From: Bradyrhizobium sp. Ash2021
GTDB lineage: Bacteria > Pseudomonadota > Alphaproteobacteria > Rhizobiales > Xanthobacteraceae
Direction of reading: 5' to 3'
NCBI RefSeq assembly: GCF_031202265.1
Contig: NZ_CP100604.1
Location: 3,206,501 to 3,270,500 of the forward strand
Length of the DNA: 64,000 bases
Made by a program: the position numbers and the translations under genes. Below, in pieces: positions 8,159 to 43,729 of the stretch; position 1 is the stretch's first letter; each line of letters starts with the position of its first letter. The notes under the pieces were generated by a model, which saw nothing but the letters and a program-made list of their open reading frames with translations, searched no databases and was not told where the DNA came from.

Positions 8159-8217
8159 CAAGAACAACAACATGTCATCGGTCATATTCCCTTCGCAACG
8201 CATCTTCCGTGCCCGCA

Positions 8218-9864
8218 ATGTCTGAGTCCGAGGTCCTGATCGTCGGCGCCGGACCGGTCGGGCTCACGCTCGCGATCGATCTGGCGTGGCGCGGCATCGG
8301 TGTGACTGTCGTGGAGACGCGCGCGCCGGCCGCCCCGCCGGAGCCGAAATGCAACCACGTCGCCGCCCGCACCATGGAAATTTTCCGGCGGCTCGGTATC
8401 GTCGAAAAAATCCGCAATGCCGGATTGCCGGCGGATTATCCGCACGACATCAGCTACCGCACCTCCTTCACCGGGCAGGAGCTGACGCGGATCAAAATTC
8501 CCTGCCGGCGCGATCGCTTTACGGCCACCGATGGTCCGGACTGCAACTGGCCGACGCCGGAGCCGCCGCACCGCATCAACCAGATCTTTCTCGAGCCGAT
8601 CCTGTTCGAGCATGCCGCAGCCCAATCGCGGATCCGCATCATCAGCCGGACCGCGGTCGAAGACGTCGTGGTGGAGGATAGTTCCGCCCGCGTGAATCTC
8701 CGCGATCTCGACTCCGGCGCGGTCAGGCGCCAAAACTGCCGCTACCTGATCGGCTGTGACGGCGCGCGTTCGGTCGTGCGCAAGGCGATCGGCGCCGAGC
8801 TTTCGGGCGACGCCATCGTCCAGCGTGTGCAGTCGACCTATATCCGCGCCCCCGGGCTGATCGATCTCCAGCAGAGCGCGCGCGCCTGGGGGACCGGGGC
8901 GATCAATCCGCGGCGCGCGGGCATGGTGTATGCGATCGACGGCAGCGAGCGCTGGCTGGTGCATAACTACATGAAGCCCGGCGAGGGCGATTTCGATTCC
9001 GTGGATCGCGACTACTGTCTGCGCACCATCCTCGGCGTCGACGCCGGCTTCGACTACGAGATCATCTCGAAGGAGGATTGGTACGGCCGCCGCCTGATCG
9101 CCAACAAGTTTCGCGACCGCAGCGCCTTCATCGCCGGCGATGCCGCGCATATCTGGGTGCCCTATGCCGGTTATGGCATGAATGCCGGCATCGCCGACGC
9201 CATGAACCTGTCCTGGCTGCTGGCGGCCCATCTCAACGGCTGGGCGCCGCCCGCCATCCTCGACGCCTATGAGGCGGAGCGCTGGCCGATCACCAGCCAG
9301 GTTTCGAAATTTGCGATGTCGCACGCGGAAGCCGAAATCCGCCGCCGCGGCGCCGTGCCGGACGAAATCGAGGATCCGGGACCGCAAGGCGAGCGGGCGC
9401 GGGAGGAAGTCGGCCGTCTCACCTATGAGATCAACGTCCAGCAATATGCCTGCGCCGGGCTGAACTTCGGCACCTATTACGATCGCTCGCCGATCATTGC
9501 CTATGATGGCGCCGAACATCCGGCCTATACGATGGACCATTACACGCCGTCGACGGTCCCGGGCTGCCGCACGCCGCATCTCTGGCGCGAAGACGGCTCC
9601 TCGCTTTACGACGCGATGGGCGCTGGCTTCACGCTGCTGCGGTTCGATCCGACAATCGATGTTGCAGCGCTGGAAGCGGCAGCCCGCGCGCGAGCCGTTC
9701 CGTTCAGGATTCTCGATATCGAAAAAAGCCGCGCGGCCATCTTCGATGGCAACGCGCTGGTGTTGTCGCGGCCCGACCAGCACGTCGCCTGGCGCGGCAA
9801 CCGGTTGCCGGCCGATCCGGCCCGGTTGATCGATCGTGTTCGTGGGGCTGCGGGCGCGCTGTGA
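8218..9864 (+). CDS. FAD-dependent aromatic monooxygenase (MhpA/PheA class A flavoprotein)
   Basis: About 548 residues with the three fingerprints of single-component flavin hydroxylases: the FAD dinucleotide fold VLIVGAGPVGLTLAIDLAWRG at the N-terminus, the CDGARSVVRKAIG (DG) motif in the middle and the GDAAHIWVPYAGYGMNAGIADAMNLSWLL motif that contacts the FAD ribityl chain. Such enzymes hydroxylate phenolic or aryl acids with NAD(P)H and oxygen. A GTG at 8209 (adding three residues) is an equally possible start; no ribosome site decides. Downstream of the Bug protein gene on the same strand; it ends three bases before a palindromic repeat. The ring substrate is unknown. Confidence 0.88.
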   Translation: MSESEVLIVGAGPVGLTLAIDLAWRGIGVTVVETRAPAAPPEPKCNHVAARTMEIFRRLGIVEKIRNAGLPADYPHDISYRTSFTGQELTRIKIPCRRDRFTATDGPDCNWPTPEPPHRINQIFLEPILFEHAAAQSRIRIISRTAVEDVVVEDSSARVNLRDLDSGAVRRQNCRYLIGCDGARSVVRKAIGAELSGDAIVQRVQSTYIRAPGLIDLQQSARAWGTGAINPRRAGMVYAIDGSERWLVHNYMKPGEGDFDSVDRDYCLRTILGVDAGFDYEIISKEDWYGRRLIANKFRDRSAFIAGDAAHIWVPYAGYGMNAGIADAMNLSWLLAAHLNGWAPPAILDAYEAERWPITSQVSKFAMSHAEAEIRRRGAVPDEIEDPGPQGERAREEVGRLTYEINVQQYACAGLNFGTYYDRSPIIAYDGAEHPAYTMDHYTPSTVPGCRTPHLWREDGSSLYDAMGAGFTLLRFDPTIDVAALEAAARARAVPFRILDIEKSRAAIFDGNALVLSRPDQHVAWRGNRLPADPARLIDRVRGAAGAL

Positions 9865-29892: not shown

Positions 29893-30822
29893 TCACGACT
29901 TCCGATGCTTTGCATTGACCGCAATCGCGGCCGCCGCGGTGCGGTTCTCGACGCCGAGTTTGGAATAGATCTGCTCGAGGTGCTTGTCGACGGTGCGCGG
30001 GCTCAAGCCCAGGATTTGCGCGATGTCGCGGTTGGTCTTGCCCTTGGACAGCCACGACAGCACCTCGCCCTCGCGCGTCGTCAGGCCAAGTTCGCTGGAG
30101 AATTCCGCCGGCGTGTCGGCGCCGGTGTCCTTGGCCAGCCGAAGCAGGAATTCGTTGGGGCCGAGCTTGCCCATATATTGCAAGCGCAACTGCTCGTGAC
30201 CTGCAAAAGACGCCATCGCCGCGGCCTTCGATCCGGCCTTGCCCTGCTGGGCCTGATTGAGCCAGTGCGGGATCGGATCCGGCAGCACGAATTCTTCCTC
30301 GGTATCGGCGGCGAGCGTGGCCGACAACAGTTTTTGCGCCTGTGGGGTCGCCCACATGATCTTGCCCTGGCCGTTGACCGCGAGAAGATAGCGGCCGGAG
30401 ACGTCGAGCGCGGCACGGGCGCTCTGCGTCAGCCGCGCGTTGGCGAGGTGGACCCGAATCCGCGCGATCATCTCCTCGACCACGATTGGCTTGGTGACGT
30501 AATCGACGCCGCCGGCCTCGAGGCCGCGGACGATATGTTCGGTTTCCGCCAGCCCCGTCATGAAGATGATCGGGACGTTGCCAAGGCCGGCGTCGCGCTT
30601 CAGCCGTTTGCAGGTCTCAAAACCGTCCATGCCAGGCATCACGGCGTCGAGCAGCACGATGTCGGGCGTAATCTGGTCGACGATCCGCATCGCCGAAGCG
30701 CCGTCGAGCGCGACCATCACGGTCATGCCCGCGCCGTCGAGCGCGTCGGTGAGCAGCCGCAGCGTCTCCGGGGAATCATCGACGACGAGCGCGACATCGC
30801 GCTTTTTGGATTCAGTGATCAT
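29893..30822 (-). CDS. Response regulator with LuxR-type output domain
   Basis: A 309-residue two-component regulator. Residues 10-130 are a receiver domain with Asp59 in PDIVLLDAVMPGMDG and the Thr/Lys of IIFMTG and VTKPI. A middle section (about 140-235) contains a PAS-like stretch (SGRYLLAVNGQGKIMWATPQAQKLL). Residues 245-305 are a LuxR/GerE helix-turn-helix (LTTREGEVLSWLSKGKTNRDIAQILGLSPRTVDKHLEQIYSKLGV). Its start overlaps the end of the transporter-kinase gene by 11 bases, so the two are a translationally coupled pair. It probably activates the divergent amide operon. Confidence 0.92.
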   Translation of the reverse strand: MITESKKRDVALVVDDSPETLRLLTDALDGAGMTVMVALDGASAMRIVDQITPDIVLLDAVMPGMDGFETCKRLKRDAGLGNVPIIFMTGLAETEHIVRGLEAGGVDYVTKPIVVEEMIARIRVHLANARLTQSARAALDVSGRYLLAVNGQGKIMWATPQAQKLLSATLAADTEEEFVLPDPIPHWLNQAQQGKAGSKAAAMASFAGHEQLRLQYMGKLGPNEFLLRLAKDTGADTPAEFSSELGLTTREGEVLSWLSKGKTNRDIAQILGLSPRTVDKHLEQIYSKLGVENRTAAAAIAVNAKHRKS

Positions 30823-33800
30823 AGCTGTGCAGGGTCTTCAAGGTCGCCATGTACTGGTCGAGGTCGAAACGGTCGATCAGTGCGCGCATTTGCGTGACGA
30901 AATCGGCATGCTCGGGGTAATCGTTGCCGATCTCGTCGAGCTTGACCTGGATGGCGCGGATATAACCCAATTGTCCGAGGCCGATCAGTTCCTCGACATA
31001 TCTCACCGGCGGCCGCGAGCCGGTATCGGGCTTCCAGTGCGGCACGGGGATTTCTTCATCGGCCTCATACTGCCATTCGAGCTTGAGCAACTGCCGGATC
31101 GATTCCAGCAGGCGGGGAATGTCGATCGGCTTCATCAGATAGCCGTCATGGAACGGCTGCGCCAGCGGCGTGCCGTGTGCCTCGAGGGCGCTGGCCGACA
31201 CCATCAGGATACGGGCCTGATGATGGCCGTTCGAACGCAATGTTTCCGCCACCGTCCATCCGTCCATTCCGGCCATCGAGATATCAAGCAGGAAAAGATC
31301 GGGCCGGCAATGCTGGGCCAGCGCAAGGCAGGCGGGTCCGTCCGGCGCGCTCAGGAGGATAAAGCCGAGCGGCGCCAGCACCTCGCGCAGCAGATCGCGG
31401 TGGGTCGGATCGTCGTCGGTGACCAGGATGGTCTTGCGCGGCCCGTGATAGCCATAGATCGGGGCCTCGACCGGGGCGATCCGCGTCGGGTTGGTGACTT
31501 CCGACAGCAGGATCTTGACGCGAAAATTGCTGCCGGTTCCGACCGTACTGGTGACCCTTATGTCGCCCCCCATGACGCCCGCCAAGAGCCGGCTGATCGT
31601 CAGGCCAAGGCCGGTGCCGGTTTGCGGCTGCGACACGCCGAGCGCGCCGCGCTCGAAGGGGGCGAAGATACGTTCGAGATCGCCGGCCTGGATGCCCGGA
31701 CCGGTGTCGATCACCTCGAATTCCGCAACGGGGCTGCGGTAATGCACGACGAACCGCACGCTGCCGGCTTGCGTGAATTTGATGGCGTTCGACAGCAAAT
31801 TGATCAGGATCTGGCGCAGCCGCTTTTCATCGGCATACACCACGACCGGCAACAGCGTCGGCCGCTTGAAGACGAAGTCGACGCCCTTGGCGGCGGCCTG
31901 CAGGCGGAACATGCCGACGAGCTGATCGAGGAAATCGCTGAGGCGCACCTCGTCGCGCGACAGATAGAGCCGGCCGGCCTCGATTTTCGAGATATCCAGA
32001 ATGCCGTCGATCAGCCCGGACAGATGGTCGGCGCTGCGGCGCACCACGCGCACCTGGTCGCGCGGTTTTGTCTGCAGGCTGGAATCCTGCTCCAGCAATT
32101 GGGCGTAGCCGCTGATCGCGTTCAGCGGCGAGCGCAGTTCATGGCTGATGCCCACAACATAGCGGCTCTTGGCGAGATTGGCGGACTCGGCGACTTCCTT
32201 GGCGCGCTGCAGTTCGGCGTCGGTGCGCTTATGCGCGTCGATTTCCTGGATCAGGAGCGTGGTCTGCCGCCGCGTTTCCGCTTCCGCCGCGCGCCGGCTT
32301 TGTTGCGCCAGCACGAACAGCCACGCCACCACGCCGATGATGATGGTCAGCGCAAAGAATACTTTCCAGAGCACGTCCGACAACAGTCCGGCGGCATGCA
32401 CCGTCGCTGACGTCTGCAGGTAGATCAGCGCCAGCGTCAGCCCGACCATACCGGCGGATATCGCGAACACGCCGAGATAATGCCCGAGCTGGGAGTTGAT
32501 CCGGGTATAGATCGGCTCCGGCAGCATTTTTCCTAGCGTTTCCGAGACCTGCGCCTGGATCCGCGCATGCGGCTTGCAGAGATCGTGGCAGCGCGCGTCG
32601 AGCGAACAACATAGCGAGCAGATCGGGCCGGCATAGGCGGGGCAGGAGGCCATATCCTCCGGCTCGAACGCGTGTTCGCAGATACAGCACTGGATCGATT
32701 CGAGGTTCTGCCAGCTCCGCTTCGGCTTGCGCGCGATGTAATATTTGCCGTCGGTCGCCCACGCGATCAGCGGTGCCGCGATGAAGGCAACGGCCAGTGC
32801 GACAAAAGCCGACAGCGCCTTCGCGGTCGGACCGAACAGGCCGTAGAAGGCGCTGATCGAGACGATGGTCGCAATCAACATCGCGCCGACGCCGACCGGG
32901 TTGATGTCGTAGAGATGCGCGCGCTTGAACTCGATGTGCTGCGGGCGCAGGCCAAGCGGCTTGTTGATCACGAGATCGGCAACCAGCGCGCCGACCCAGG
33001 CGATCGCGACGTTGGAGTAGAGCGCCAGCGTCTGCTCCAGCGCCTTGTAGACGCCGATCTCCATCAACAAGAGCGCGACCATGACGTTGAACACCAGCCA
33101 GACCACGCGGCCGGGATGGCTGTGGGTGAGGCGGGAGAAGAAGTTCGACCAGGCGATCGAACCGGCATAGGCGTTGGTGACGTTGATCTTGACCTGCGAC
33201 AGGATCACGAAGGTGCCGGTCAATGCCAGCGCCAGATTGGGCTGCGACAGCACATAGCGAAACGCTTCGAGATACATATGCGCGGGCTCGGCGGCGTGCT
33301 CGTTGGAGACGCCGTGGCTCAGCGCGAAGAAGGCGAGGAACGATCCCGCCAAGAGCTTGAGCGAACCGAGAACGATCCAGCCGGGACCGGCGCTCAGCAG
33401 CGCGATCCACCACGATTTTCGCGAGGTTCGCCGGTCGCGCGGCAGGAAGCGCAGGAAGTCGACCTGTTCGCCGATCTGCGCCACCAGCGAAAACACCACC
33501 GAGGCGGCGGTGCCGAACAGCAAGAGATCGAGATGGCCGCCGGCATCGCCATGCTCGCCGGCAAATTTTCGCCATTCGGTAAAGGAGTACGGATTGGCAT
33601 AGGCGATCGCCGCGAACGGCATGATGTGAAGCACGATCCACAGCGGCTGCGTCCACAACTGGAAGCGGCTGATCAGCGTGATGCCGTACGCCACCAGCGG
33701 GATGATGACGACGGCGCTGATGAGATAGCCGATCGGCCGCGGGATTCCGAAGCACATCTCGAGCGCGCTGGCGAGGATGACGGCTTCGATCGCAAAGAAG

Positions 33801-34183
33801 ATGAAGGTGAACGACGCGTAGATCAGCGAGGTGATGGTCGAGCCGATATAACCGAAGCCGGCGCCCCGGGTCAGAAGATCGATGTCGATGCCGCATTTGG
33901 CGGCGTGATAGGCGATCGGCAAACCGCACAGGAAAATGATGACGCTGACCACAAGAATGGCGGCGGTCGCGTTCATTGCACCGTAATTGAGCGTGATCGT
34001 GCCGCCGATCGCCTCCATCGCCAGGAACGAGATCGCGCCGAGCGCGGTGTTGGCGACGCGGGCGGCCGACCATCGCCGCGCGCTCTTGGCGGTGAAGCGG
34101 AGCGCGTAGTCTTCCAGGGTCTGGTTCGCAACCCATTGATTGTACTGGCGTCTGACGCGGTCGATCCGCTGCCGCCCTGCCAC
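30812..34183 (-). CDS. NCS1 permease-like hybrid sensor histidine kinase/response regulator
   Basis: About 1123 residues. Residues 10-480 are a multi-span membrane part of NCS1 type (cytosine/purine/allantoin permeases; TLEDYALRFTAKSARRW, ISFLAMEAIGGTITLNYGA, GAGFGYIGSTITSLIYASFT). Then comes a cysteine-rich block at 499-536 (CCxC, C, CxxCC, C, C; zinc-finger-like), two more spans (about 570-630), a HisKA/HATPase kinase (SHELRSPLNAISGYAQLL, His681; N-box near 795; TGTGLGLTISRLLAG) and a receiver domain with Asp967 in FLLDISMAGMDG. I start it at GTG 34183 because AGGAG lies ten bases upstream; a TTG at 34276 has no such site. The natural reading is a transporter-derived receptor sensing a urea-, amide- or purine-like compound, divergent from the amide operon. 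Confidence 0.9.
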   Translation of the reverse strand: MAGRQRIDRVRRQYNQWVANQTLEDYALRFTAKSARRWSAARVANTALGAISFLAMEAIGGTITLNYGAMNATAAILVVSVIIFLCGLPIAYHAAKCGIDIDLLTRGAGFGYIGSTITSLIYASFTFIFFAIEAVILASALEMCFGIPRPIGYLISAVVIIPLVAYGITLISRFQLWTQPLWIVLHIMPFAAIAYANPYSFTEWRKFAGEHGDAGGHLDLLLFGTAASVVFSLVAQIGEQVDFLRFLPRDRRTSRKSWWIALLSAGPGWIVLGSLKLLAGSFLAFFALSHGVSNEHAAEPAHMYLEAFRYVLSQPNLALALTGTFVILSQVKINVTNAYAGSIAWSNFFSRLTHSHPGRVVWLVFNVMVALLLMEIGVYKALEQTLALYSNVAIAWVGALVADLVINKPLGLRPQHIEFKRAHLYDINPVGVGAMLIATIVSISAFYGLFGPTAKALSAFVALAVAFIAAPLIAWATDGKYYIARKPKRSWQNLESIQCCICEHAFEPEDMASCPAYAGPICSLCCSLDARCHDLCKPHARIQAQVSETLGKMLPEPIYTRINSQLGHYLGVFAISAGMVGLTLALIYLQTSATVHAAGLLSDVLWKVFFALTIIIGVVAWLFVLAQQSRRAAEAETRRQTTLLIQEIDAHKRTDAELQRAKEVAESANLAKSRYVVGISHELRSPLNAISGYAQLLEQDSSLQTKPRDQVRVVRRSADHLSGLIDGILDISKIEAGRLYLSRDEVRLSDFLDQLVGMFRLQAAAKGVDFVFKRPTLLPVVVYADEKRLRQILINLLSNAIKFTQAGSVRFVVHYRSPVAEFEVIDTGPGIQAGDLERIFAPFERGALGVSQPQTGTGLGLTISRLLAGVMGGDIRVTSTVGTGSNFRVKILLSEVTNPTRIAPVEAPIYGYHGPRKTILVTDDDPTHRDLLREVLAPLGFILLSAPDGPACLALAQHCRPDLFLLDISMAGMDGWTVAETLRSNGHHQARILMVSASALEAHGTPLAQPFHDGYLMKPIDIPRLLESIRQLLKLEWQYEADEEIPVPHWKPDTGSRPPVRYVEELIGLGQLGYIRAIQVKLDEIGNDYPEHADFVTQMRALIDRFDLDQYMATLKTLHSYDH

Positions 34184-34226
34184 TTCGATTAACTCCTCAA
34201 GCCCGACTGCACGCGAAACCGACCGC

Positions 34227-34262
34227 GATTGCGTTCGCGATTGCGTTCGTGATTCCGCTCGC
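34227..34262. repeat. Three 12-base tandem repeats upstream of the sensor kinase
   Basis: GATTGCGTTCGC, GATTGCGTTCGT and GATTCCGCTCGC follow one another without gaps, with a decayed fourth unit after. They lie in the divergent region 44-80 bases ahead of the kinase start and could be regulator-binding iterons or a slippage product. Confidence 0.8.
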
Positions 34263-34324
34263 AATTCCCGTACCAAAAACCTACGTCGCTATTTTGCGGT
34301 GCAATATACGCGATCTCACGTATC

Positions 34325-34337
34325 TGTGCAGTGCACA
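34325..34337. promoter_or_regulatory. Palindrome TGTGC-N3-GCACA before the amide operon
   Basis: TGTGCAGTGCACA is a perfect palindrome 57 bases upstream of the binding-protein start. It shares its half sites and spacing with the element at 21750-21764 in the nitrate locus. Confidence 0.5.
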
Positions 34338-34394
34338 AATGTGAGCAATCCTTGCCTGACCAATAAGCGTGTTCTCGAACCAAACGGGGTGCTC

Positions 34395-35654
34395 ATGTCA
34401 GACGAAACCAATAAGGGCCTGCAGTCGGCATTTCGCCGCAAACTGCTGATGGGAATGGCCGCAATTCCCGCTCTAACCATGCTTCCTCGCCCATCTTTTG
34501 CGCAAGCGCCGGCAACCTCCGCGATCAACACCACGGGCCTCGCGGTTACCGATACTGAAGTGACGGTCGGCATCCTGCATTCGGCCACCGGCACGATGGC
34601 GATTTCGGAAACCGGTTCGATCGAAGCCGAGAAGCTCGCCATCGACCAGATCAACGCCGCCGGCGGCGTGCTCGGCCGCAAGATCAAGTTCATCCAGGAA
34701 GACGGCGCCAGCGACTGGCCGACCTTCGCCGAGAAGGCCAAGAAGCTGCTCGTCAACGACAAGGTCGCGGCGATCATGGGCTGCTGGACCTCGGCTTCCC
34801 GCAAGGCGGTGTTGCCGGTGGTCGAGCAATATAACGGCATGCTCTATTATCCGACCTTCTACGAAGGCCTCGAGCAGTCCAAGAACGTGATCTATACCGG
34901 CCAGGAAGCCACCCAGCAGATCCTCGCCGGCCTGAACTGGATCGCCAAGGAGAAGGGCGCAAAATCCTTCTTCTTCGTCGGCTCGGACTACATCTGGCCG
35001 CGCACCTCGAACAAGATCGCACGCAAGCACGTCGAAAACGTGCTGAAGGGCAAGGTCGTCGGCGAGGAATATTACCCGCTCGGCAATACCCAGTTCAACT
35101 CGGTGATCAACAAGATCAAGCTGACCAAGCCCGACGTGATCTTCACCGACGTCGTCGGCGGATCCAACGTCGCGTTCTACAAGCAGCTCAAGGCGGCCGG
35201 CATCGACCTGTCGAAGCAGGCGCTGCTGACGATCTCGGTGACCGAAGACGAAATCGACGGTATCGGCGGCGAGAACATCGCGGGCGCCTATGCCTGCATG
35301 AAATACTTCGAGTCGCTCGATAATCCGAACAACAAGGCCTTCGTGCCGGCATTCCAGAAGATGTGGGGCGCCAAGACCGTGATCGGCGACGTCACGCAGG
35401 CCGCCTATCTCGGCCCGTGGCTGTGGAAGTTAACGGTCGAGAAGGCCGGAAGCTTCGACGTCGACAAGATCGCGGCAGCTTCGCCCGGCGTGGAATTCAA
35501 GGGGGCGCCGGAAGGCTACGTGCGCATTCATGAAAACCATCATCTCTGGTCGAAGACCCGGGTCGGGCGCGCCAAGCTCGATGGCCAGTTCGAACTGATC
35601 TACGAGACCGCCGATCTGGTCGAGCCGGATCCGTTCCCGAAGGGCTACCAGTAA
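34395..35654 (+). CDS. urtA: Urea/short-chain amide ABC transporter, substrate-binding protein
   Basis: A 419-residue periplasmic binding protein of the UrtA/FmdD branch of the branched-chain amino-acid type family. The N-terminus FRRKLLMGMAAIPALTMLPRPSFAQA is an export signal with twin-arginine flavour. VGILHSATGTMAISETGSIEAEKLAIDQINAAGGVLGR, GCWTSASRKAVLPVVE and LYYPTFYEGLEQSKNVIYTG are typical of UrtA. ATG 34395 is preceded by CGGGGTGCTC. First gene of a co-directional cluster with transporter, formamidase and amidase genes, so ligands may include formamide, acetamide and urea. A stable hairpin after it may raise its mRNA level over the membrane genes. Confidence 0.92.
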   Translation: MSDETNKGLQSAFRRKLLMGMAAIPALTMLPRPSFAQAPATSAINTTGLAVTDTEVTVGILHSATGTMAISETGSIEAEKLAIDQINAAGGVLGRKIKFIQEDGASDWPTFAEKAKKLLVNDKVAAIMGCWTSASRKAVLPVVEQYNGMLYYPTFYEGLEQSKNVIYTGQEATQQILAGLNWIAKEKGAKSFFFVGSDYIWPRTSNKIARKHVENVLKGKVVGEEYYPLGNTQFNSVINKIKLTKPDVIFTDVVGGSNVAFYKQLKAAGIDLSKQALLTISVTEDEIDGIGGENIAGAYACMKYFESLDNPNNKAFVPAFQKMWGAKTVIGDVTQAAYLGPWLWKLTVEKAGSFDVDKIAAASPGVEFKGAPEGYVRIHENHHLWSKTRVGRAKLDGQFELIYETADLVEPDPFPKGYQ

Positions 35655-35722
35655 GGCCCACCGTCGTCTTCCCCGCAATCAAGCCGCTCCCTGGCGTGGA
35701 TCGCAAGTCCACGCTGCACACC

Positions 35723-35753
35723 CCCGCGTCGCTAACTTAGCTCGCGACGCGGG
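35723..35753 (+). other. Intercistronic stem-loop between urtA and urtB
   Basis: CCCGCGTCGC and GCGACGCGGG form a perfect ten-base stem around an 11-base loop, with no T run. Such hairpins behind binding-protein genes protect the upstream message or partly terminate it. Confidence 0.7.
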
Positions 35754-35776
35754 ACTTCCCCCGACGGAGAACATCG

Positions 35777-36703
35777 ATGTTCGGCGATTATTCGATTGGC
35801 GATCTGGGCTCCATCTTTGTCATGCAGGGTTTTGCGGGCCTGATCCTGTTTTCCGTCTACGTGCTGATGGCGCTCGGACTTGCGATCATCTTCGGGCAGA
35901 TGGGCGTCATCAACATGGCCCATGGCGAGTTCATGATCCTCGGCGCTTACGTGACCTGGATGACGTCGAACCTGTTCCAGGCCTACCTGCCGGGTTTGTT
36001 CGGCGGCTACTTCTTCCTCGCGATGATCCTGGCGTTCTTCGCGTCCGGAGCGCTCGGCATGCTGGTCGAATGGGCGCTGATCCGGCATCTCTACAAACGT
36101 CCGCTGGATACGCTGCTCGCCACCTGGGGTTTGAGCCTTATCCTGCAGCAGGCCTACCGCTCGATCTTCGGCGCCCGTGAGGTCGGCGTCGAACTGCCGC
36201 AGTGGATGCTGGGCTCGCTGCATGTCACCGAAAGCATCGAGGTTCCGATCAACGGCGTCTTCGTGATGGCCCTGACGCTGCTGATCACGATGGCAGTGGC
36301 CTACATCATGTACAAATCGCGCTGGGGCCGCCAGGTCCGCGCCGTCGTGCAGAACCGGATCATGGCCGGCGCCGTCGGCATCAACACCGAGAAAGTCGAT
36401 CGTTACACCTTCGGCCTCGGTTGCGGCATCGCCGGCGTCGCCGGGAGCGCGTTCACCATGATCGGCTCCACCGGGCCGACTTCCGGCCAGCTCTATATCG
36501 TCGATACCTTCCTGGTGGTCGTGTTCGGCGGCGCAGCCAGCCTGATCGGCACCATCGCATCGGCATTCAGCATCTCGCAGACGCAATCGACGCTCGAGTT
36601 CTTCATGTCGGGGTCGATGGCAAAGGTCCTCACGCTGCTCGCGGTCGTCGGAATCTTGATGCTGCGGCCGCAGGGTCTGTTCGCCCTCAAGGTCCGCAAA
36701 TAA
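35777..36703 (+). CDS. urtB: Urea/amide ABC transporter permease UrtB
   Basis: A 308-residue LivH-type membrane permease. It shows the usual spans and the conserved stretch GLAIIFGQMGVINMAHGEFMILGAY near the N-terminus, RHLYKRPLDTLLATWGLSLILQQ in the middle, and the UrtB-like loop SIFGAREVGVELPQWMLGSL. It pairs with UrtC to make the channel. ATG 35777 follows GGAGA by six bases. Usual UrtB proteins of cyanobacterial type are longer; this short form matches amide/urea transporters without the periplasmic extension. Confidence 0.92.
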   Translation: MFGDYSIGDLGSIFVMQGFAGLILFSVYVLMALGLAIIFGQMGVINMAHGEFMILGAYVTWMTSNLFQAYLPGLFGGYFFLAMILAFFASGALGMLVEWALIRHLYKRPLDTLLATWGLSLILQQAYRSIFGAREVGVELPQWMLGSLHVTESIEVPINGVFVMALTLLITMAVAYIMYKSRWGRQVRAVVQNRIMAGAVGINTEKVDRYTFGLGCGIAGVAGSAFTMIGSTGPTSGQLYIVDTFLVVVFGGAASLIGTIASAFSISQTQSTLEFFMSGSMAKVLTLLAVVGILMLRPQGLFALKVRK

Positions 36704-36718
36704 CAGAGGGCTGAAGCC

Positions 36719-37864
36719 ATGACCGACAATCGCTTTGTCAATCGATCGGAGCTGATCGGAATTCTGCTGCTCGCCGTTTTCCTGGTGGTGATCCTGCCGC
36801 TCTGCCTCGATGTCTTCAGGCTCAATCTGGTCGCGAAATACCTGACCTACGCCTTCGTGGCGCTGGGGCTGGTGATCTGCTGGGGATATGGCGGCATCTT
36901 AAGCCTCGGGCAGGGCGTGTTCTTCGGTCTCGGCGGCTACTGCATGGCGATGTTTCTCAAGCTTGAAGCGTCAAGCGTCGAGAACACCAAGATCCAGTCG
37001 ACGCCCGGCATTCCCGATTTCATGGACTGGAACCAGATCACCTCGCTGCCGCTGTTCTGGAAGCCGTTTCACAGTCTCACCTTCACCATTGCCGCCGTCA
37101 TCCTGGTACCCGGCATCTTTGCCCTGATCATCGGTGCCGCGATGTTCAAGCGCCGGGTCGGCGGCACCTATTTCGCCATTATCACCCAGGCGGTCGCCGC
37201 GATCCTGACCATCCTGATCGTGGGACAGCAGGGCTATACCGGCGGCATCAACGGCATGACCGACCTGCGCACCCTGAAGGGATGGGACATCCGGCCGGAC
37301 CACGCCAAGATCGTGCTCTACTTCTTCGAGGTCGGCTGCCTGTTCGTCTGCATCTTCATCGCCCAGTTCATCCGTCACTCGAAGCTCGGCCGCATCCTGG
37401 TCGCGATGCGTGACAAGGAGGATCGGGTTCGCTTCTCCGGCTACAGCGTCGCCAATTTCAAGATCTTCGCCTTCTGCGTCGCGGCCATATTCGCCGCGAT
37501 CGGCGGCGCCATGTTCGCGCTCAATGTCGGTTTCATGTCGCCGTCCTTTGTCGGCATCGTGCCGTCGATCGAGATGGTGATTTACACGGCGGTCGGCGGC
37601 CGGCTCTCGATCCTGGGTGCGGTGTACGGCACGCTGCTGGTCAACTTCGCCAAGACCAGCCTGTCGGAATCCTTCCCCGAATTGTGGCTGTTCGGGCTCG
37701 GCGGATTGTTCATCGCGGTGGTGCTCGCCTTCCCCAACGGTCTCGCCGGGATCTGGGGCGATTACGTGCAGCCGCGCATCGACCGGCTGGTCAATTCGCG
37801 CAAGCCGAAATCCGGCGACGGCTGGACCGACGGTTCGGTTGCCGACGGCGCCCCGGCGGAATGA
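36719..37864 (+). CDS. urtC: Urea/amide ABC transporter permease UrtC
   Basis: A 381-residue LivM-type permease with about nine spans. GYGGILSLGQGVFFGLGGYCMAMFLKLEA, VGGTYFAIITQAVAAILTIL and GQQGYTGGINGMTDLRTLKGW are family hallmarks, and RDKEDRVRFSGYSVANFKIFAF is the cytoplasmic loop that docks onto the ATPase. It begins 15 bases after urtB and is followed 11 bases later by urtD. Its C-terminus is a short polar tail. Confidence 0.92.
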   Translation: MTDNRFVNRSELIGILLLAVFLVVILPLCLDVFRLNLVAKYLTYAFVALGLVICWGYGGILSLGQGVFFGLGGYCMAMFLKLEASSVENTKIQSTPGIPDFMDWNQITSLPLFWKPFHSLTFTIAAVILVPGIFALIIGAAMFKRRVGGTYFAIITQAVAAILTILIVGQQGYTGGINGMTDLRTLKGWDIRPDHAKIVLYFFEVGCLFVCIFIAQFIRHSKLGRILVAMRDKEDRVRFSGYSVANFKIFAFCVAAIFAAIGGAMFALNVGFMSPSFVGIVPSIEMVIYTAVGGRLSILGAVYGTLLVNFAKTSLSESFPELWLFGLGGLFIAVVLAFPNGLAGIWGDYVQPRIDRLVNSRKPKSGDGWTDGSVADGAPAE

Positions 37865-37875
37865 GGAGATAGACC

Positions 37876-38631
37876 ATGCTCATAGGCCACCAGTCCAAGG
37901 AGTTTCTGCTCGCGGTCGAGGCGCTCACGGTTTCCTTCGATGGATTCAAGGCGGTCAACGATCTCTCCTTCTACGTCGAGGAGAACGAAATCCGCGTCAT
38001 CATCGGCCCCAATGGCGCCGGCAAGACCACCGTGCTCGACCTGATCTGCGGAAAAACCAAGGCGACCTCCGGCTCGATTCAATTCCGTGGGCAGGAACTC
38101 ACGAAGTTGAAGGAGAACCAGATCGTGCAGGCCGGGGTGGGACGAAAATTCCAGACCCCCTCGATCTACGACGACCTCACCGTGTTCGAGAATCTCGAGA
38201 TCTCGTTTCCGCGCGGACGTACCGTGTTCGGCGCGCTGACCTTCACGCGCGACACGATCGTGCGCGACCGCGTTCACGAGGTCGCCGAAATGATCTTTTT
38301 GAAGGACCGGCTCAATATGAGCGCCGAACTGCTTAGCCACGGCCAGAAGCAATGGCTCGAGATCGGCATGCTGCTGATCCAGGATCCCGAATTGCTGATG
38401 CTGGACGAACCGGTCGCCGGCATGAGCGTCAGCGAGCGCGTCAAGACCGCCGAGCTGCTCAACCGCATCATCAGGGATCGTTCGGTGCTGGTGATCGAGC
38501 ACGACATGAAATTCGTCGAGGACATCGCGCACAAGGTCACGGTCCTGCATCAGGGCCAGATCCTGTCGGAAGGCACGATGGATCACGTCAAGAACGATCC
38601 CAAGGTTATCGAAGTCTATCTGGGTCACTGA
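37876..38631 (+). CDS. urtD: Urea/amide ABC transporter ATP-binding protein UrtD
   Basis: A 251-residue LivG-type ATPase. Walker A is GPNGAGKTT, the signature motif is LLSHGQKQWLEIGM, and Walker B is ELLMLDEPVAGMS, followed by the switch His in VIEHDMKFVEDIA. The signature HGQKQWLEIGM is specific for UrtD-type proteins rather than LivG (LSYGQQRRLEIA). ATG with GGAGA eight bases upstream. A palindromic repeat of about 180 bases separates it from urtE. Confidence 0.93.
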   Translation: MLIGHQSKEFLLAVEALTVSFDGFKAVNDLSFYVEENEIRVIIGPNGAGKTTVLDLICGKTKATSGSIQFRGQELTKLKENQIVQAGVGRKFQTPSIYDDLTVFENLEISFPRGRTVFGALTFTRDTIVRDRVHEVAEMIFLKDRLNMSAELLSHGQKQWLEIGMLLIQDPELLMLDEPVAGMSVSERVKTAELLNRIIRDRSVLVIEHDMKFVEDIAHKVTVLHQGQILSEGTMDHVKNDPKVIEVYLGH

Positions 38632-38662
38632 GCAGATGAAGTTCAATCGAAGCGAATGCGGT

Positions 38663-38844
38663 GCCTCGTCTCCCTCTCCCCGCATGCGAGGAGAGGGTTG
38701 GGGTGAGGGGGAGTCTCCACGAGCGGTATGCTTGGAGAGTCCCCCTCACCCGGCGCTGCGCGATAGCCGAAGCTTTGCTTCGGCGTTCTTCTACAAGAAC
38801 GGCCGCCGGAGGCGGCCTTTGCTCTCCCCGCAAGCGGGGCGAGG
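38663..38844. repeat. Palindromic repeat, family C, inside the amide operon
   Basis: CTCTCCCCGC...GGGTGAGGGGGAGTC is mirrored by GACTCCCCCTCACCC..., followed by AGCCGAAGC-TTT-GCTTCGGC and an end block CTCCCCGCAAGCGGGGCGAGG. It lies between urtD and urtE, leaving the urtE ribosome site (AAGGAA) intact. Confidence 0.8.
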
Positions 38845-38876
38845 TAATTCGGTGCTTAACGGATAAGGAACGCGTG

Positions 38877-39566
38877 ATGCTGGCAATCTCCGATCTTCAC
38901 GTCGCTTACGGCCAGAGCGAGGTGCTGCATGGCCTGAACATATCCGTCGCGCCCAACGAGATCGTGGCGATCATGGGGCGCAACGGCATGGGCAAGACCA
39001 CGCTGATGAAGTCGCTGATGGGCATCGTGCCGACCAGGAGCGGTTCGGTGAACATGGAGGGTACCGAACTGTCGGCCCTCAAGAGCTACGAGCGCGTCGT
39101 CAAGGGGCTCGCCTACGTGCCGCAGGGCCGCATGATCTTCTCGGCGATGACCGTCAAGGAGAATATCGAGACCGGCCTTGTCGCATCAGGCGAAAAGGAA
39201 GTCCCTGGCGACCTCTATGAGCTGTTCCCGGTGCTGCTCGAGATGAAGGATCGCCGCGGCGGCAATCTGTCCGGCGGCCAGCAGCAGCAGCTCGCGATCG
39301 CGCGTGCGCTCGCCACCAAGCCAAAGGTGCTGCTGCTGGACGAGCCGACCGAAGGCATCCAGCCCTCGATCATCAAGGAGATGGCGCGCACGTTGAAGCG
39401 CATTCGTGACGAGCGCGGGCTGTCGATCGTGGTCTCCGAGCAGGTGCTGAGCTTTGCGCTCGACATCGCCGACCGCGTGCTCGTGATCGAGAACGGCGAG
39501 ATCGTGCGCGACGATCCGCGCGACAACGTCGATGCCGCGCAGATCTCGAAATATTTGTCCGTCTGA
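38877..39566 (+). CDS. urtE: Urea/amide ABC transporter ATP-binding protein UrtE
   Basis: A 229-residue LivF-type ATPase: Walker A GRNGMGKTT, signature NLSGGQQQQLAIARAL, Walker B VLLLDEPTEGIQPSII. The string LDEPTEGIQPSII is typical of UrtE. I start at ATG 38877 after AAGGAA; a frame open further upstream only reads through the palindromic repeat. The formamidase gene follows 34 bases downstream, so the operon continues into the hydrolases. Confidence 0.93.
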   Translation: MLAISDLHVAYGQSEVLHGLNISVAPNEIVAIMGRNGMGKTTLMKSLMGIVPTRSGSVNMEGTELSALKSYERVVKGLAYVPQGRMIFSAMTVKENIETGLVASGEKEVPGDLYELFPVLLEMKDRRGGNLSGGQQQQLAIARALATKPKVLLLDEPTEGIQPSIIKEMARTLKRIRDERGLSIVVSEQVLSFALDIADRVLVIENGEIVRDDPRDNVDAAQISKYLSV

Positions 39567-39600
39567 ACTGTAACATGGCCAGTAAAAAGGGGAGCATCCG

Positions 39601-40830
39601 ATGCCAGAGACACTGATCAAGGTCGATCTTTCGAAGTCGGCCTACGACAACGACATGATTCACAACCGCTGGCACCCCGACATCCCGATCGTGGCGTGGG
39701 TCAAGCCGGGCGACGACTTCATCATCGAGACCGTCGACTGGACCGGCGGCTTCATCAAGAACAACGATTCCGCCGACGACGTGCGCGACATCGATCTATC
39801 GATCGTGCACTTCCTGTCCGGCCCGATCGGCGTCAAGGGCGCCGAGCCCGGCGATCTTCTCGTTGTCGATCTGCTCGATGTAGGGCCGCTGAAGGAAAGC
39901 CTGTGGGGCTTTAATGGCTTCTTCTCCAAGCAGAATGGCGGCGGCTTCCTGACCGATCATTTCCCGCTGGCGCAGAAATCGATCTGGGACATCAAGGGCC
40001 TCTATACGTCCTCGCGCCATATTCCCGGCGTGAACTTCGCGGGGCTGATCCATCCCGGCCTGATCGGCTGTCTGCCCGACCCGAAAATGCTGGCGACCTG
40101 GAACGAGCGCGAGGCCGCGCTGATCGCGACCAACCCGACGCGCATCCCCGGCCTCGCCAATCCGCCGTTCGCGCCGACCGCGCACGCCGGCCAGGCGAAA
40201 GGCGACGTCAAGGCCAAGATCGGCGCCGAGGGCGCCCGCACGGTGCCGCCGCGCGAGCATGGCGGCAATTGCGACATCAAGGATCTGTCGCGCGGCTCGA
40301 AAATCTACTTCCCGGTCTACGTGCCCGGCGGCGGGCTCTCGATGGGCGATCTGCATTTCAGCCAGGGCGACGGCGAGATCACCTTCTGCGGCGCGATCGA
40401 GATGGCCGGCTGGCTGCATCTGAAGGTCGACGTGATCAAGGACGGCGTCGCCAAATACGGCATCAAGAATCCCGTGTTCAAGCCGTCGCCGATCACGCCG
40501 AACTACAAGGACTACCTGATCTTCGAGGGCATCTCGGTCGACGAGCAAGGCAAGCAGCACTATCTCGACGTCCACATCGCCTACCGCCAGGCCTGCCTGA
40601 ACGCGATCGAGTATCTGAAGAAGTTCGGTTACTCCGGCGCGCAGGCCTATTCGATCCTCGGCACCGCGCCGTGCCAGGGCCACATCTCCGGCGTGGTCGA
40701 CGTGCCGAACGCCTGCGCCACGCTGTGGCTGCCGACGGAGATCTTCGACTTCGACATCATGCCGTCGTCGGTCGGTCCCATCAAACACATCAAGGGCGAC
40801 ATCCAGATGCCGCTCTCGCCGGACAAATGA
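39601..40830 (+). CDS. fmdA: Formamidase FmdA
   Basis: A 409-residue cytoplasmic formamidase of the acetamidase/formamidase (FmdA_AmdA) family, which hydrolyses formamide to formate and ammonia. Length and sequence (IHNRWHPDIPIVAWVKPGDDFIIETVDWTGGFI, LYTSSRHIPGVNFAGLIHPGLIGCLP, REHGGNCDIKDLSRGSKIYFPVYVPGGGLSMGDLHFSQGDGE) match Methylophilus and mycobacterial formamidases well. AAGGGG lies seven bases before the ATG. In Methylophilus methylotrophus fmdA likewise sits with fmdB and an amide ABC transporter. Confidence 0.94.
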   Translation: MPETLIKVDLSKSAYDNDMIHNRWHPDIPIVAWVKPGDDFIIETVDWTGGFIKNNDSADDVRDIDLSIVHFLSGPIGVKGAEPGDLLVVDLLDVGPLKESLWGFNGFFSKQNGGGFLTDHFPLAQKSIWDIKGLYTSSRHIPGVNFAGLIHPGLIGCLPDPKMLATWNEREAALIATNPTRIPGLANPPFAPTAHAGQAKGDVKAKIGAEGARTVPPREHGGNCDIKDLSRGSKIYFPVYVPGGGLSMGDLHFSQGDGEITFCGAIEMAGWLHLKVDVIKDGVAKYGIKNPVFKPSPITPNYKDYLIFEGISVDEQGKQHYLDVHIAYRQACLNAIEYLKKFGYSGAQAYSILGTAPCQGHISGVVDVPNACATLWLPTEIFDFDIMPSSVGPIKHIKGDIQMPLSPDK

Positions 40831-40919
40831 TCCCTGCGCGACGGGATGCGGGACGGCTTGAGTATCGGCCGCCCCGCATCCGCCGCCGCCTAACAATTCA
40901 ATCGCGCAAGGGAAACCAA

Positions 40920-41261
40920 ATGCCCGTCTATGAATATCTCTGCAATGATTGCGGCCCGTTCACGGATATGCGGCCGATGGCCGAATGTGATCTGCCGCAG
41001 GACTGTCCGCAATGCGACATTGAAGCGCCGCGCGTGATCCTGACCGCGCCGGCTTTCTTCTGCATGCCCTCCGACAAGCGCAAGGCCCATGCCACCAACG
41101 AGCGCAGCGCCAACGCGCCCAAAACCGTCGGCGAATATAAGGCGTCGCATGCACCCGGCTGCGGCTGCTGTTCCGGCAAGAAGCCGGCGCGGCTGGTGAC
41201 AAAAACGAAGGGCGGCGCCAAGGGCTTTCCGACCGCGCGGCCCTGGATGATCAGCCACTGA
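40920..41261 (+). CDS. fmdB: FmdB family zinc-ribbon protein
   Basis: A 113-residue protein with an N-terminal FmdB zinc ribbon: MPVYEYLCNDCGPF with Cys8 and Cys11, and CPQCDIEAP with Cys29 and Cys32. The C-terminal half is basic with a CGCCSGKK cluster. FmdB proteins were named as regulators of formamidase expression in Methylophilus; DNA binding is not proven for this type. It sits between formamidase and amidase genes as the third part of the hydrolase module. Confidence 0.9.
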   Translation: MPVYEYLCNDCGPFTDMRPMAECDLPQDCPQCDIEAPRVILTAPAFFCMPSDKRKAHATNERSANAPKTVGEYKASHAPGCGCCSGKKPARLVTKTKGGAKGFPTARPWMISH

Positions 41262-41317
41262 TGCCCCACGACGTCTGATCGACAGCAAACTCAAACCAAA
41301 AACAGAAGGCGATCCCC

Positions 41318-42358
41318 ATGCTTCATGGCGACATTTCCTCAAGCAACGACACCGTCGGCGTAGCCGTCGTCAACTACAAAATGCCGCGGCTGCACAGCAG
41401 GGCCGAGGTGCTCGACAACGCCCGCAAGATCGCCGACATGGTGGTGGGCATGAAGACCGGCCTGCCGGGCATGGATCTGGTGATCTTTCCGGAATACTCC
41501 ACCCACGGCATCATGTACGACTCGAAAGAGATGTACGAGACGGCTTCGCAGGTCCCTGGTCCCGAGACCGACATCTTCGCCGAAGCCTGCCGCAAGGCCA
41601 AGGTCTGGGGCGTGTTCTCGCTCACCGGCGAGCGCCACGAGGAACACCCGCACAAGGCGCCGTACAACACCTTGATCCTGATGAACGACAAGGGCGAGAT
41701 CGTCCAGAAATACCGCAAGATCATGCCGTGGGTGCCGATCGAAGGCTGGTATCCCGGCAATTGCACTTATGTTTCCGACGGTCCGAAAGGCCTCAAGGTC
41801 AGCCTGATCATCTGCGACGACGGCAACTTTCCGGAAATCTGGCGTGACTGTGCCATGAAGGGCGCCGAGCTGATCGTGCGCTGCCAGGGCTACATGTATC
41901 CGGCCAAGGAACAGCAGATCCTGATTTCCAAGGCGATGGCCTGGGCCAACAATGTCTATGTCGCGGTCGCCAATGCCGCCGGCTTCGACGGCGTCTACTC
42001 CTACTTCGGTCACTCGGCGATCATCGGTTTCGACGGCCGCACCCTGGGCGAGACCGGCGAGGAGGAATACGGCATCCAGTATGCAGCTCTGTCGAAGAAC
42101 CTGATCCGCGATTTCCGCCGCAACGGCCAGTCGCAGAACCACCTCTACAAGCTGGTCCATCGCGGTTATACCGGCATGATCAATTCCGGCGAAAGCGCGC
42201 GCGGCCTCGCGGCCTGTCCCTACGATTTCTACACGAAGTGGATATCCGATCCGGAAGGCACGCGCGAAATGGTCGAGGCGATGACCCGCCCGACCGCTGG
42301 CACCGACGAATGCCCGATCGACGGCATCCCGAACGAGAAGTCCGCGACCAATTACTAG
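41318..42358 (+). CDS. amiE: Aliphatic amidase AmiE
   Basis: A 346-residue nitrilase-superfamily amidase that releases ammonia from short aliphatic amides such as acetamide and propionamide. The catalytic triad falls exactly at the numbering of Pseudomonas AmiE: Glu59 ([10 protein letters not shown]), Lys134 (KYRKIMPW) and Cys166 ([11 protein letters not shown]). Overall length is also the same. Last gene of the operon; its stop lies 23 bases before a palindromic repeat into which an IS4-family element has inserted. Confidence 0.95.
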
Positions 42359-42411: not shown

Positions 42412-43729
42412 GATAGTGGGGATAGTGGGAACATTGTTTGATACTGACGTTTTCTTGGCGGCTCGCGGAGATGGCGTTGGAGGACCGATTTTGCTCGGCG
42501 CAGGCGGTCGATCGTGGGCTGTGGAATCACCGCTTGGAGCAGCGAGGCGATGAGATGCTGGAGCAGACGCCAGGCACCAGGCGGTGTCAGGCGGCTTCGA
42601 CCAAGCGGGGAGAGTCCTCAAGTTCGTCGATGAGCGGCTCGAGCAGTAGAATAGTCAATAGATGAGCCAGCACATGAGGTCTGGCGGAGCGTTCGTCGAT
42701 TCCTGGTGGTCCCTTGAGACCGATCAGGCTCTTTAGCCGTTTGAAGCCGAGTTCAATCCGCCATCGCAGGCGATAGAGTGCGAGAACATCCGCGGTCGCG
42801 AACTCTGTCGGCTTCAGTGAGGTCACCAGGATCACCCAATCTGCCGCGTCGAGCGTTTGCTTGGATATCTGATGGCCTCCGCGCTGGGCGGCCCGACGCG
42901 CCTTGCGTCGCGCCTCGGCAGCAGCATGCGCCGGCTTCTTGACCGCGACCAGACGCAAGGCGAGAGGCTCGCCGCTTTTGCGTTTTATCCAAATCGGCCG
43001 ATCGATCAGCCCACGGGCCGCCGCCTTGCGCAACTCGGCGACGAGATCGAGCACATTGCCTTTACCATCGAGCCAGCACGCGCTCTTCCAACCAGCCCGG
43101 ATCACGAAATCTCCGCCGGCTTCGATCACGCTCGCCATGCGATCCGGTTGCAAATAGGCACGGTCGCCAAGGCGAATCTCGCCCGCCACCACCGGTATCC
43201 GGTCGAGCGTCTCGCCCGCCTGCTGATCGGTCAGTTCGAAGTGGCCAAAGCGCTCCTGCGGAAGATCGAAGGCGCTGTGAATCCGCCACAACTCGTTCTT
43301 CTTTCTGGCGTCAGCTCCGTTCTTCGGCACTGTAGTGGCATCAACGATGCGGATGATCCGACCGCGGCTCGCTTGCGGGGCGGCGGCCGCAAGCATCTGA
43401 CCCACCAGCAACGCGAGCCAGTCTCCGCACTGACGCAAGCGATACAGCAGCGCCACGCTCGAAATATCGACAAGGCCCACCGATGTCGCCCAGGCCGCAG
43501 TCGACCGCAACCCCCGCTCGCCCAGACAATAGGCCAGGATCACGCGCAGCAAATCCACCGCGTTGGTGATCTCTCGCGGACGCAAAAACGCTTTCGTCTC
43601 GCGCGCCGTCACCTTGAGCGTTTCCACCCCGCCAAGCCGGGCGACAACATTCTTCCAGTCTTCGTTCACAAGCGATTCGTGTCTCATGACACTTTGGAAT
43701 CACAGACGATTCCGCGCCGCAAGACTATT
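42412..43729. mobile_element. IS4-family insertion sequence, copy 1 (1318 bp)
   Basis: Bounded by TTAA at 42408-42411 and 43730-43733. The ends read GATAGT and, from the other side inward, AATAGT, so only a short imperfect terminal repeat is visible. Flanks CGTCGTCCCGGCGAA...GCG and CGC...TTCGCCGGGACC show that it sits at the centre of a family D palindromic repeat (42381-43897). Copy 2, in inverse orientation and of identical length, is at 57791-59108. Confidence 0.88.
42587..43687 (-). CDS. IS4 family transposase (copy 1)
   Basis: A 366-residue DDE transposase, identical in translated sequence to that at 57833. Catalytic blocks: IIRIVDATTV (first Asp), EIRLGDRAYL (second Asp) and the Y-R-E signature in LYRLRWRIELGFKRLKSLIG (Glu). 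After its stop, sequence resembling the usual C-terminal tail (PPGAWRLLQHLIASLLQAVI...LQRHLREPPRKRQYQTMF) continues in the -1 frame to the element end, suggesting a conserved truncation or frameshift. Confidence 0.92.
   Translation of the reverse strand: MRHESLVNEDWKNVVARLGGVETLKVTARETKAFLRPREITNAVDLLRVILAYCLGERGLRSTAAWATSVGLVDISSVALLYRLRQCGDWLALLVGQMLAAAAPQASRGRIIRIVDATTVPKNGADARKKNELWRIHSAFDLPQERFGHFELTDQQAGETLDRIPVVAGEIRLGDRAYLQPDRMASVIEAGGDFVIRAGWKSACWLDGKGNVLDLVAELRKAAARGLIDRPIWIKRKSGEPLALRLVAVKKPAHAAAEARRKARRAAQRGGHQISKQTLDAADWVILVTSLKPTEFATADVLALYRLRWRIELGFKRLKSLIGLKGPPGIDERSARPHVLAHLLTILLLEPLIDELEDSPRLVEAA

Follow-up and report, generated by a model that had tools for sequence, protein, structure and literature searches.

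A probable urea- or amide-responsive histidine kinase with an NCS1-like sensor domain, and its predicted operator, at a urt-fmdA-amiE locus of Bradyrhizobium

We analyzed a 64,000-nucleotide stretch of Bradyrhizobium sp. Ash2021 (contig NZ_CP100604.1, positions 3,206,501 to 3,270,500; hereafter, the window), in which a first-pass annotation had described a histidine kinase fused to a transporter-like domain and divergent from a urea and amide uptake and hydrolysis operon. The gene set it had named, comprising the kinase, a response regulator, and urtABCDE-fmdA-fmdB-amiE, was confirmed at the positions listed in Table 1. Genes from urtA (34395) to amiE (42358) form a single row divergent from the kinase gene, which does overlap that of the LuxR-type regulator, by 11 bases, and the HisKA, HATPase, and receiver domains were each recovered. 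GTG at 34183 is the likelier start codon of the kinase, with GAGGAG just 5' of it, and gives a protein of 1123 amino acids; most of 120 listed homologues have 1122 or 1123. At the position of fmdB, one relative's record carries the name zinc ribbon protein.

Table 1. Features of the kinase-urtA-amiE locus, with positions in the window.
Feature	Position	Strand	Remarks
Hybrid histidine kinase with N-terminal NCS1-like domain	30812..34183	-	likelier start GTG 34183; open frame up to TTG 34276
NCS1-like transporter domain of kinase	32747..34117	-	residues ~54-510 counted from TTG
Cys-rich block of kinase, 8 invariant Cys	32576..32689	-	residues 530-567
Two long helices of kinase, presumed membrane hairpin running to HisKA linker	32240..32491	-	model helices 557-584, 590-640
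HisKA domain of kinase, phospho-acceptor His712	31973..32170	-	residues 703-768
HATPase_c domain of kinase	31505..31831	-	residues 816-924
Receiver domain of kinase, Asp998	31097..31429	-	residues 950-1060
LuxR/NarL-type response regulator, receiver with Asp59 and GerE	29893..30822	-	11-base overlap with kinase
Predicted operator TACGCGATCTCACGTA, 16-bp dyad	34307..34322	+	~72 bases upstream of urtA start
urtA, urea/amide-type substrate-binding protein	34395..35654	+	TIGR03407 above cut-off; open frame from 34140
urtB	35777..36703	+	TIGR03409 above cut-off
urtC	36719..37864	+	TIGR03408 above cut-off
urtD	37876..38631	+	TIGR03411 above cut-off
urtE	38877..39566	+	TIGR03410 above cut-off; open reading frame begins 38661, profile match from residue 74
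fmdA, formamidase	39601..40830	+	NF045496, 755 bits, above cut-off
fmdB-type zinc-ribbon protein	40920..41261	+	reading frame; name from position and tblastn matches at same spot in relatives
amiE, aliphatic amidase	41318..42358	+	NF009802, 716 bits, above cut-off

The N-terminal half of the kinase had been assigned to the NCS1 transporters. PF02133, the NCS1 profile, matched neither the kinase nor anything else in its own genome, nor any row of a nine-sequence alignment at E up to 10. In nine sequences, Pfam likewise recovered neither an SSS nor a STAC domain at E up to 10, and a search of the kinase N-terminus with Pfam and NCBIfam returned no transporter. In fold comparisons of the N-terminal domain, CodB and Mhp1 ranked first, and Foldseek also matched SSS structures (E ~1e-5). 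In stand-alone relatives, both the permease part and the beginning of the Cys motif are shared with the kinase (43% identity, 528 columns), and PF02133 matches 3 of 23 of these relatives, with the Klebsiella-type relative scoring 37.7 bits against a cut-off of 23.5. Because of its fold and of these relatives, some of which match PF02133, we place the N-terminal half, as modeled, closest to NCS1 and not SSS, with a LeuT-like fold. The assignment was therefore right on fold and homology, with SSS matches absent from the profile searches; what failed was the direct match to PF02133. Against PDB sequences, neither a kinase-only nor a stand-alone-only profile matched an NCS1 protein, and a mixed nine-row profile was the only one of those tried to match CodB.

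Across 166 kinases and stand-alone relatives, the core polar residues of this domain (E125, Q228, E231, Q232, D234, Q322, K324, N326, and N329; add 39 for kinase residue numbers) show conservation of at least 98.5%, and a search for residues discriminating urease-linked from amide-linked kinases found nothing discrete. A single ligand class for all members of the family is the simpler reading of these two results. In a tree of 95 rows built with a quick method, the kinases separate from the stand-alone permeases, except for L004, which sits on a long branch. One further kinase, L153, matches the sensor domain only over residues 1-224 before its kinase part begins, which is either a natural deletion or an assembly fault.

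We then compared gene neighborhoods at 80 named loci, the top-ranked 80 among at least 595 stretches and so biased toward close relatives; here and below, counts of loci, genomes, and sites come from related species and are not independent. Divergent urtA was present in 77 of the 80 (67 of the 68 whose left flank is complete), and two of the three loci lacking it lie at contig ends. The regulator gene lies 3' of the kinase in 79. Among the 55 loci whose UrtA is at least 60% identical to that of the window, 49 carry fmdA and none carries urease, while among the 22 with a less similar UrtA (<60%), 15 carry urease genes and none fmdA. Urease and amide partners exclude each other at kinase loci, and do so in distant genera.

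Evenly drawn surveys of genomes from the class and the phylum are less biased than the named loci. The sensor domain was matched in 27 of 385 genomes of the class survey and a stand-alone query in 52 of 398 of the phylum survey, the genome under study included in both. Together these gave 75 kinases, counted with our own genome left out, as were L154, L237, and L238, which are distant and lack such a kinase part, and L204 and L216, whose kinase part does not match. Sixty-eight are linked to urt, fmd, or urease genes: 44 loci are amide-type (defined by fmdA or by a UrtA sharing at least 60% identity with the window's), 13 are urease-type, and 11 have canonical urt genes only. Two of the remaining seven sit at contig ends. 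Four genomes (G520, G584, G605, and G725) encode two kinases each, one amide-type and one urease-type. Of the 398 phylum genomes, 40 encode FmdA (E up to 1e-80). A sensor-domain homologue is present in 39 of the 40, G482 being the sole exception, compared to 13 of 358 genomes without FmdA (Fisher p 1.4e-41, uncorrected for relatedness). The kinase family is present in Alpha-, Beta-, and Gammaproteobacteria. Linkage of the kinase with amide genes, as the first-pass annotation had anticipated, thus holds in many genera of both the named loci and the surveys, and the wider family is tied to urea, through urease and canonical urt genes, as well as to amides.

The intergenic region between kinase and urtA contains a conserved dyad, a probable operator with consensus TACGTCANNTGACGTA, which was spotted by eye in a Bradyrhizobium alignment before being tallied across the groups. 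Regions outside the training set were scored with a matrix built from 11 urease-type loci alone; it passed the 99% shuffle level in 34 of the 35 regions of amide type and in all 20 of Bradyrhizobium type (among them Enhydrobacter and one Afipia metagenome-assembled genome). These regions came from 66 sequences, window included, with divergent-urtA loci having at least 900 bases between matches left out. In the 64-kb window, the site at 34307-34322 is the only one of at least 9 bits. At 14 bits, a threshold that misses the weaker Bradyrhizobium form, a site was found in 45 of 77 survey loci compared to 1 of 77 shuffled loci.

Once the training loci had been taken out, a scan of 158 loci gave 136 sites, spread over 95 of the loci; 10 further loci had no sensor-domain match left after filtering. 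Of the sites, 135 have distinct 96-base surroundings. No more than 600 bp downstream of 128 of them begins a urt, fmd, ami, ure, or kinase gene, compared to 8.2% of random positions. Of the 136, 80 fall between kinase and urtA and 11 upstream of the kinase only, with 1 more between kinase and fmdA; 16 precede urtA alone, 17 fmdA, and 1 each amiE, amiF, and ureD, leaving 8 unassigned. Since 36 of the 44 sites not before a kinase precede urtA, fmdA, amiE, amiF, or ureD, the operator tracks uptake and hydrolysis genes even away from the kinase (e.g., L007, L097, and L101).

Of 38 kinase genomes, 7 contain the exact consensus, at 7 places in all; it is absent from 21 genomes without a sensor-domain match. 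Six of these places are within 300 bases of the kinase match; the seventh, in G505, is ~12 kb away, just 5' of the urtA that heads a urt-urease-kinase row. The Bradyrhizobium form is found once per genome in 7 of 10 genomes of the genus, each time adjoining the kinase, and its exact match is unique in the 9.7 Mb of our own genome. Of the three genomes without it, G712 has no kinase, and G560 and G576 have one. This shared palindromic operator adds to the evidence for regulation. At five loci (L057, L059, L065, L032, and L185), two copies are spaced by exactly 22 bases, or about two turns of the helix, which suggests paired regulator dimers.

The Cys-rich block reported in the first reading of the kinase is real, its 8 Cys being invariant in 61 aligned kinases. 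These came from the window and 60 of the 80 named loci, with L034 (stop codon), L056, L068, and others, mostly near-copies, left out; a later alignment used 52 of those 60 loci and the window. Folded alone, the block reached a mean predicted local distance difference test score (pLDDT) of 75 and a predicted template modeling score (pTM) of 0.57, and its Foldseek search gave no significant match, the best being a RING finger at E 0.41. Our guess from its Cys pattern is that it might be a structural zinc-binding module. Kinase residues H712, D998, and K1049 are at least 95% conserved in 60 sequences, 1 of the 61 reading frames (<900 residues) having been left out. There is no conserved His in the kinase tail after residue 1060, and no HPt domain was seen in the gene; a separate HPt protein was not sought. 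In three loci (L004, L204, and L216), the shared sensor domain is joined to another type of kinase part: that of L004 is non-hybrid, and the other two have short frames of 894-899 amino acids. All three are near fmdA and an AmiS/UreI-type channel, and urtA was not found there.

Stand-alone relatives of the sensor domain are currently named cytosine or allantoin permeases. In the plasmid collection, 7 of 8 loci read for the close family (50-100% identical to an Acinetobacter query) adjoin urease, formamidase, or amidase genes. Those beside urease are L005 and L098 from Acinetobacter, whose proteins are near-identical, and L092 from Klebsiella, a 692-kb record labeled plasmid that carries chromosomal-type genes. 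Moraxella and Tsukamurella relatives lie beside fmdA-fmdB, that of Arthrobacter lies beside an aliphatic amidase gene, and that of Methylovirgula has a kinase, fmdA-fmdB, and amiE as neighbors, the stretch read having no annotated urt gene. The Streptomyces locus showed no urease, formamidase, or amidase gene in the stretch read. In L092, a "cytosine permease" gene (7956-9563) lies directly 3' of ureG in the Klebsiella urease row; its product, a close relative of the sensor-domain family, may be a urea permease.

Taking together the computed fold, homology, gene linkage, co-occurrence, and conservation and position of the operator, we consider it probable that a transporter-derived receptor kinase with urea or a short amide as ligand acts with the LuxR-type regulator to control genes preceded by TACGTCANNTGACGTA. 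In this model, the NCS1-like domain would bind urea or a short amide (formamide, for example), as gene context suggests, and the change on binding would pass through the Cys-rich module and the two-helix linker to HisKA (His712). Phosphate would be transferred directly from HisKA to the co-encoded regulator (Asp59), with the kinase's own receiver perhaps acting as a brake. The phosphorylated regulator would then bind the dyad and turn on uptake and hydrolysis, the sign of control being presumed activation. Its targets would be the divergent urtABCDE-fmdA-fmdB-amiE row here and, in relatives, also separate fmdA, amiE or amiF, ureD, and urtA genes. Overall, these data support the earlier interpretation of the locus as a nitrogen-compound sensor switching on import and hydrolysis. 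We see about even chances for a broader proposal, namely that an unrecognized NCS1 branch has given rise to widespread dedicated urea and short-amide receptors with their own operator code, TACGTCANNTGACGTA, and that its stand-alone members are urea or amide permeases. We know of no NCS1 protein with urea or amides as its substrate class; UctT, which is linked with urea carboxylase, may be an NCS1 relative.

It is also possible, if doubtful, that the kinase is a true transceptor: its NCS1 domain would have kept the ability to import urea or amides, and the kinase would signal turnover and not just binding, a mode proposed for CbrA. The core polar residues conserved across kinases and stand-alone relatives are consistent with retained transport, and CbrA is described as a histidine transporter in the accessible text of PMC7918813. 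However, a dedicated ATP-binding cassette importer mostly co-occurs with the kinase in the surveyed loci, which would make transport by the sensor redundant.

Those NCS1 proteins whose function is known are carriers of nucleobases, hydantoins, or allantoin. This cargo raises the alternative that the sensor domain binds another solute, such as a purine-breakdown product, hydantoin, or ammonium, as a general nitrogen cue, with the amide operon as one output. A distant Rhodococcus relative (28%) adjoins hydantoinase-type genes and a PucR regulator, and some kinases are unlinked. Besides others in the surveys, these include L011 and L079 (Azospirillum) and L142-L144 (one genus), near which neither urt nor fmd nor urease genes were found; L011 adjoins xanthine-dehydrogenase-family genes. 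The operator still lies near the kinase in L142-L144; L011 has none at 14 bits. However, the urease, formamidase, and amidase neighbors of nearly all close stand-alone loci in the plasmid collection, and the 128 of 136 operator sites that precede urt, fmd, ami, ure, or kinase genes, make another solute unlikely. The purine-breakdown ligand included in the first-pass annotation found little support in the gene neighborhoods read and is not favored.

Passive hitch-hiking, in which the kinase has no control over the neighboring operon, could be imagined given that the locus occurs on plasmids, yet we judge it very improbable, since urease and amide partners exclude each other in distant genera and operators also stand before uptake and hydrolysis genes away from the kinase. 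Membership of the SSS/STAC family (CbrA, CrbS/MxtR, and RpuS) is the least credible reading despite a shared plan of LeuT-fold transporter, linker, HisKA, and HATPase, the receiver also found in CrbS/MxtR (PMC7918813, PMC5715377, in the portions accessible), and the Foldseek matches to SSS structures.

To our knowledge, few bacterial transporter-kinase fusions have been characterized. In the SSS (SLC5)-STAC kinases CbrA, CrbS (MxtR), and RpuS, as here, a secondary transporter with a LeuT-like fold is fused to a kinase, which in CrbS is also hybrid; the Bradyrhizobium kinase differs in its NCS1-like rather than SSS domain, in the Cys-rich module in the place of STAC, and in its linkage with urea and amide genes. 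CodB and Mhp1 resemble the sensor domain in fold, with homology through the stand-alone relatives, whereas they have no kinase part and other substrates, and PF02133 does not match the kinase. Within the accessible text of the sources, transporter-fused kinases in print are of the SSS type (PMC7918813, PMC13022988) or the Amt type (PMC5764959), and the term NCS1 is absent from the first two. Ks-Amt5, as described in the available part of PMC5764959, likewise fuses a nitrogen-compound transporter domain to a histidine kinase, but the domain is an ammonium transporter and ammonium is sensed. Among the matches listed for the open-access literature, searched by title and abstract start, no paper on an NCS1-histidine kinase was found; automated JGI names already read "signal transduction histidine kinase/purine-cytosine permease-like protein." An NCS1-like kinase would add a third transporter family to the SSS and Amt fusions found in print, and its predicted ligand class, regulator, operator, and regulon can be tested immediately. 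If correct, the proposal would explain how cells detect outside urea or formamide and would correct the names of permeases within urease gene rows, as in Klebsiella and Acinetobacter.

Related operons have been described. The Methylophilus fmdCABDEF cluster combines formamidase with high-affinity uptake of short amides and urea and, according to the accessible text of a review, is induced by formamide and urea and repressed by ammonia; only a putative positive regulator is given, and "two-component" does not occur in the review's main text (PMC10781810). The B. japonicum cluster blr0968-blr0973 (urt-fmdA-amiE) is of the same operon type and from the same genus, and the portion available proposes amide rather than urea as its cargo (PMC3098086). 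AmiC/AmiR also provides amide-responsive control of amidase and transporter genes, through a ligand sensor, AmiC, and antitermination by AmiR, in contrast to the membrane kinase proposed here; related clusters are described from Pseudomonas veronii (both in the accessible part of PMC13209695). Clusters of urt-amiF have been described on Klebsiella plasmids (PMC5506382, PMC13060141, in part). The words "histidine kinase" are absent from the main text, as available, of PMC3098086, PMC13209695, PMC5506382, and PMC13060141. Of 530 plasmid records with a sensor-domain match, 342 are from Klebsiella, and many of those listed are clinical isolates. On one Klebsiella IncF plasmid (L003, 11977-16240), a related kinase and regulator face urtABCDE-amiF.

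The genome under study encodes two further UrtA proteins above cut-off, at 8.495 Mb and 8.80 Mb, so the locus is not its sole urea-type uptake system; the gene at 8.495 Mb lies some 7 kb from the only urease alpha match (8.488 Mb). An IS4-type transposase gene (42587-43687, minus strand) lies immediately 3' of amiE, and the 3' border of the operon may therefore be recent. Elsewhere in the genome, two binding-protein genes on opposite strands (C1:1728351-1729292 and C1:1856226-1857167) have the same scores and frame lengths, which points to a possibly recent duplication.

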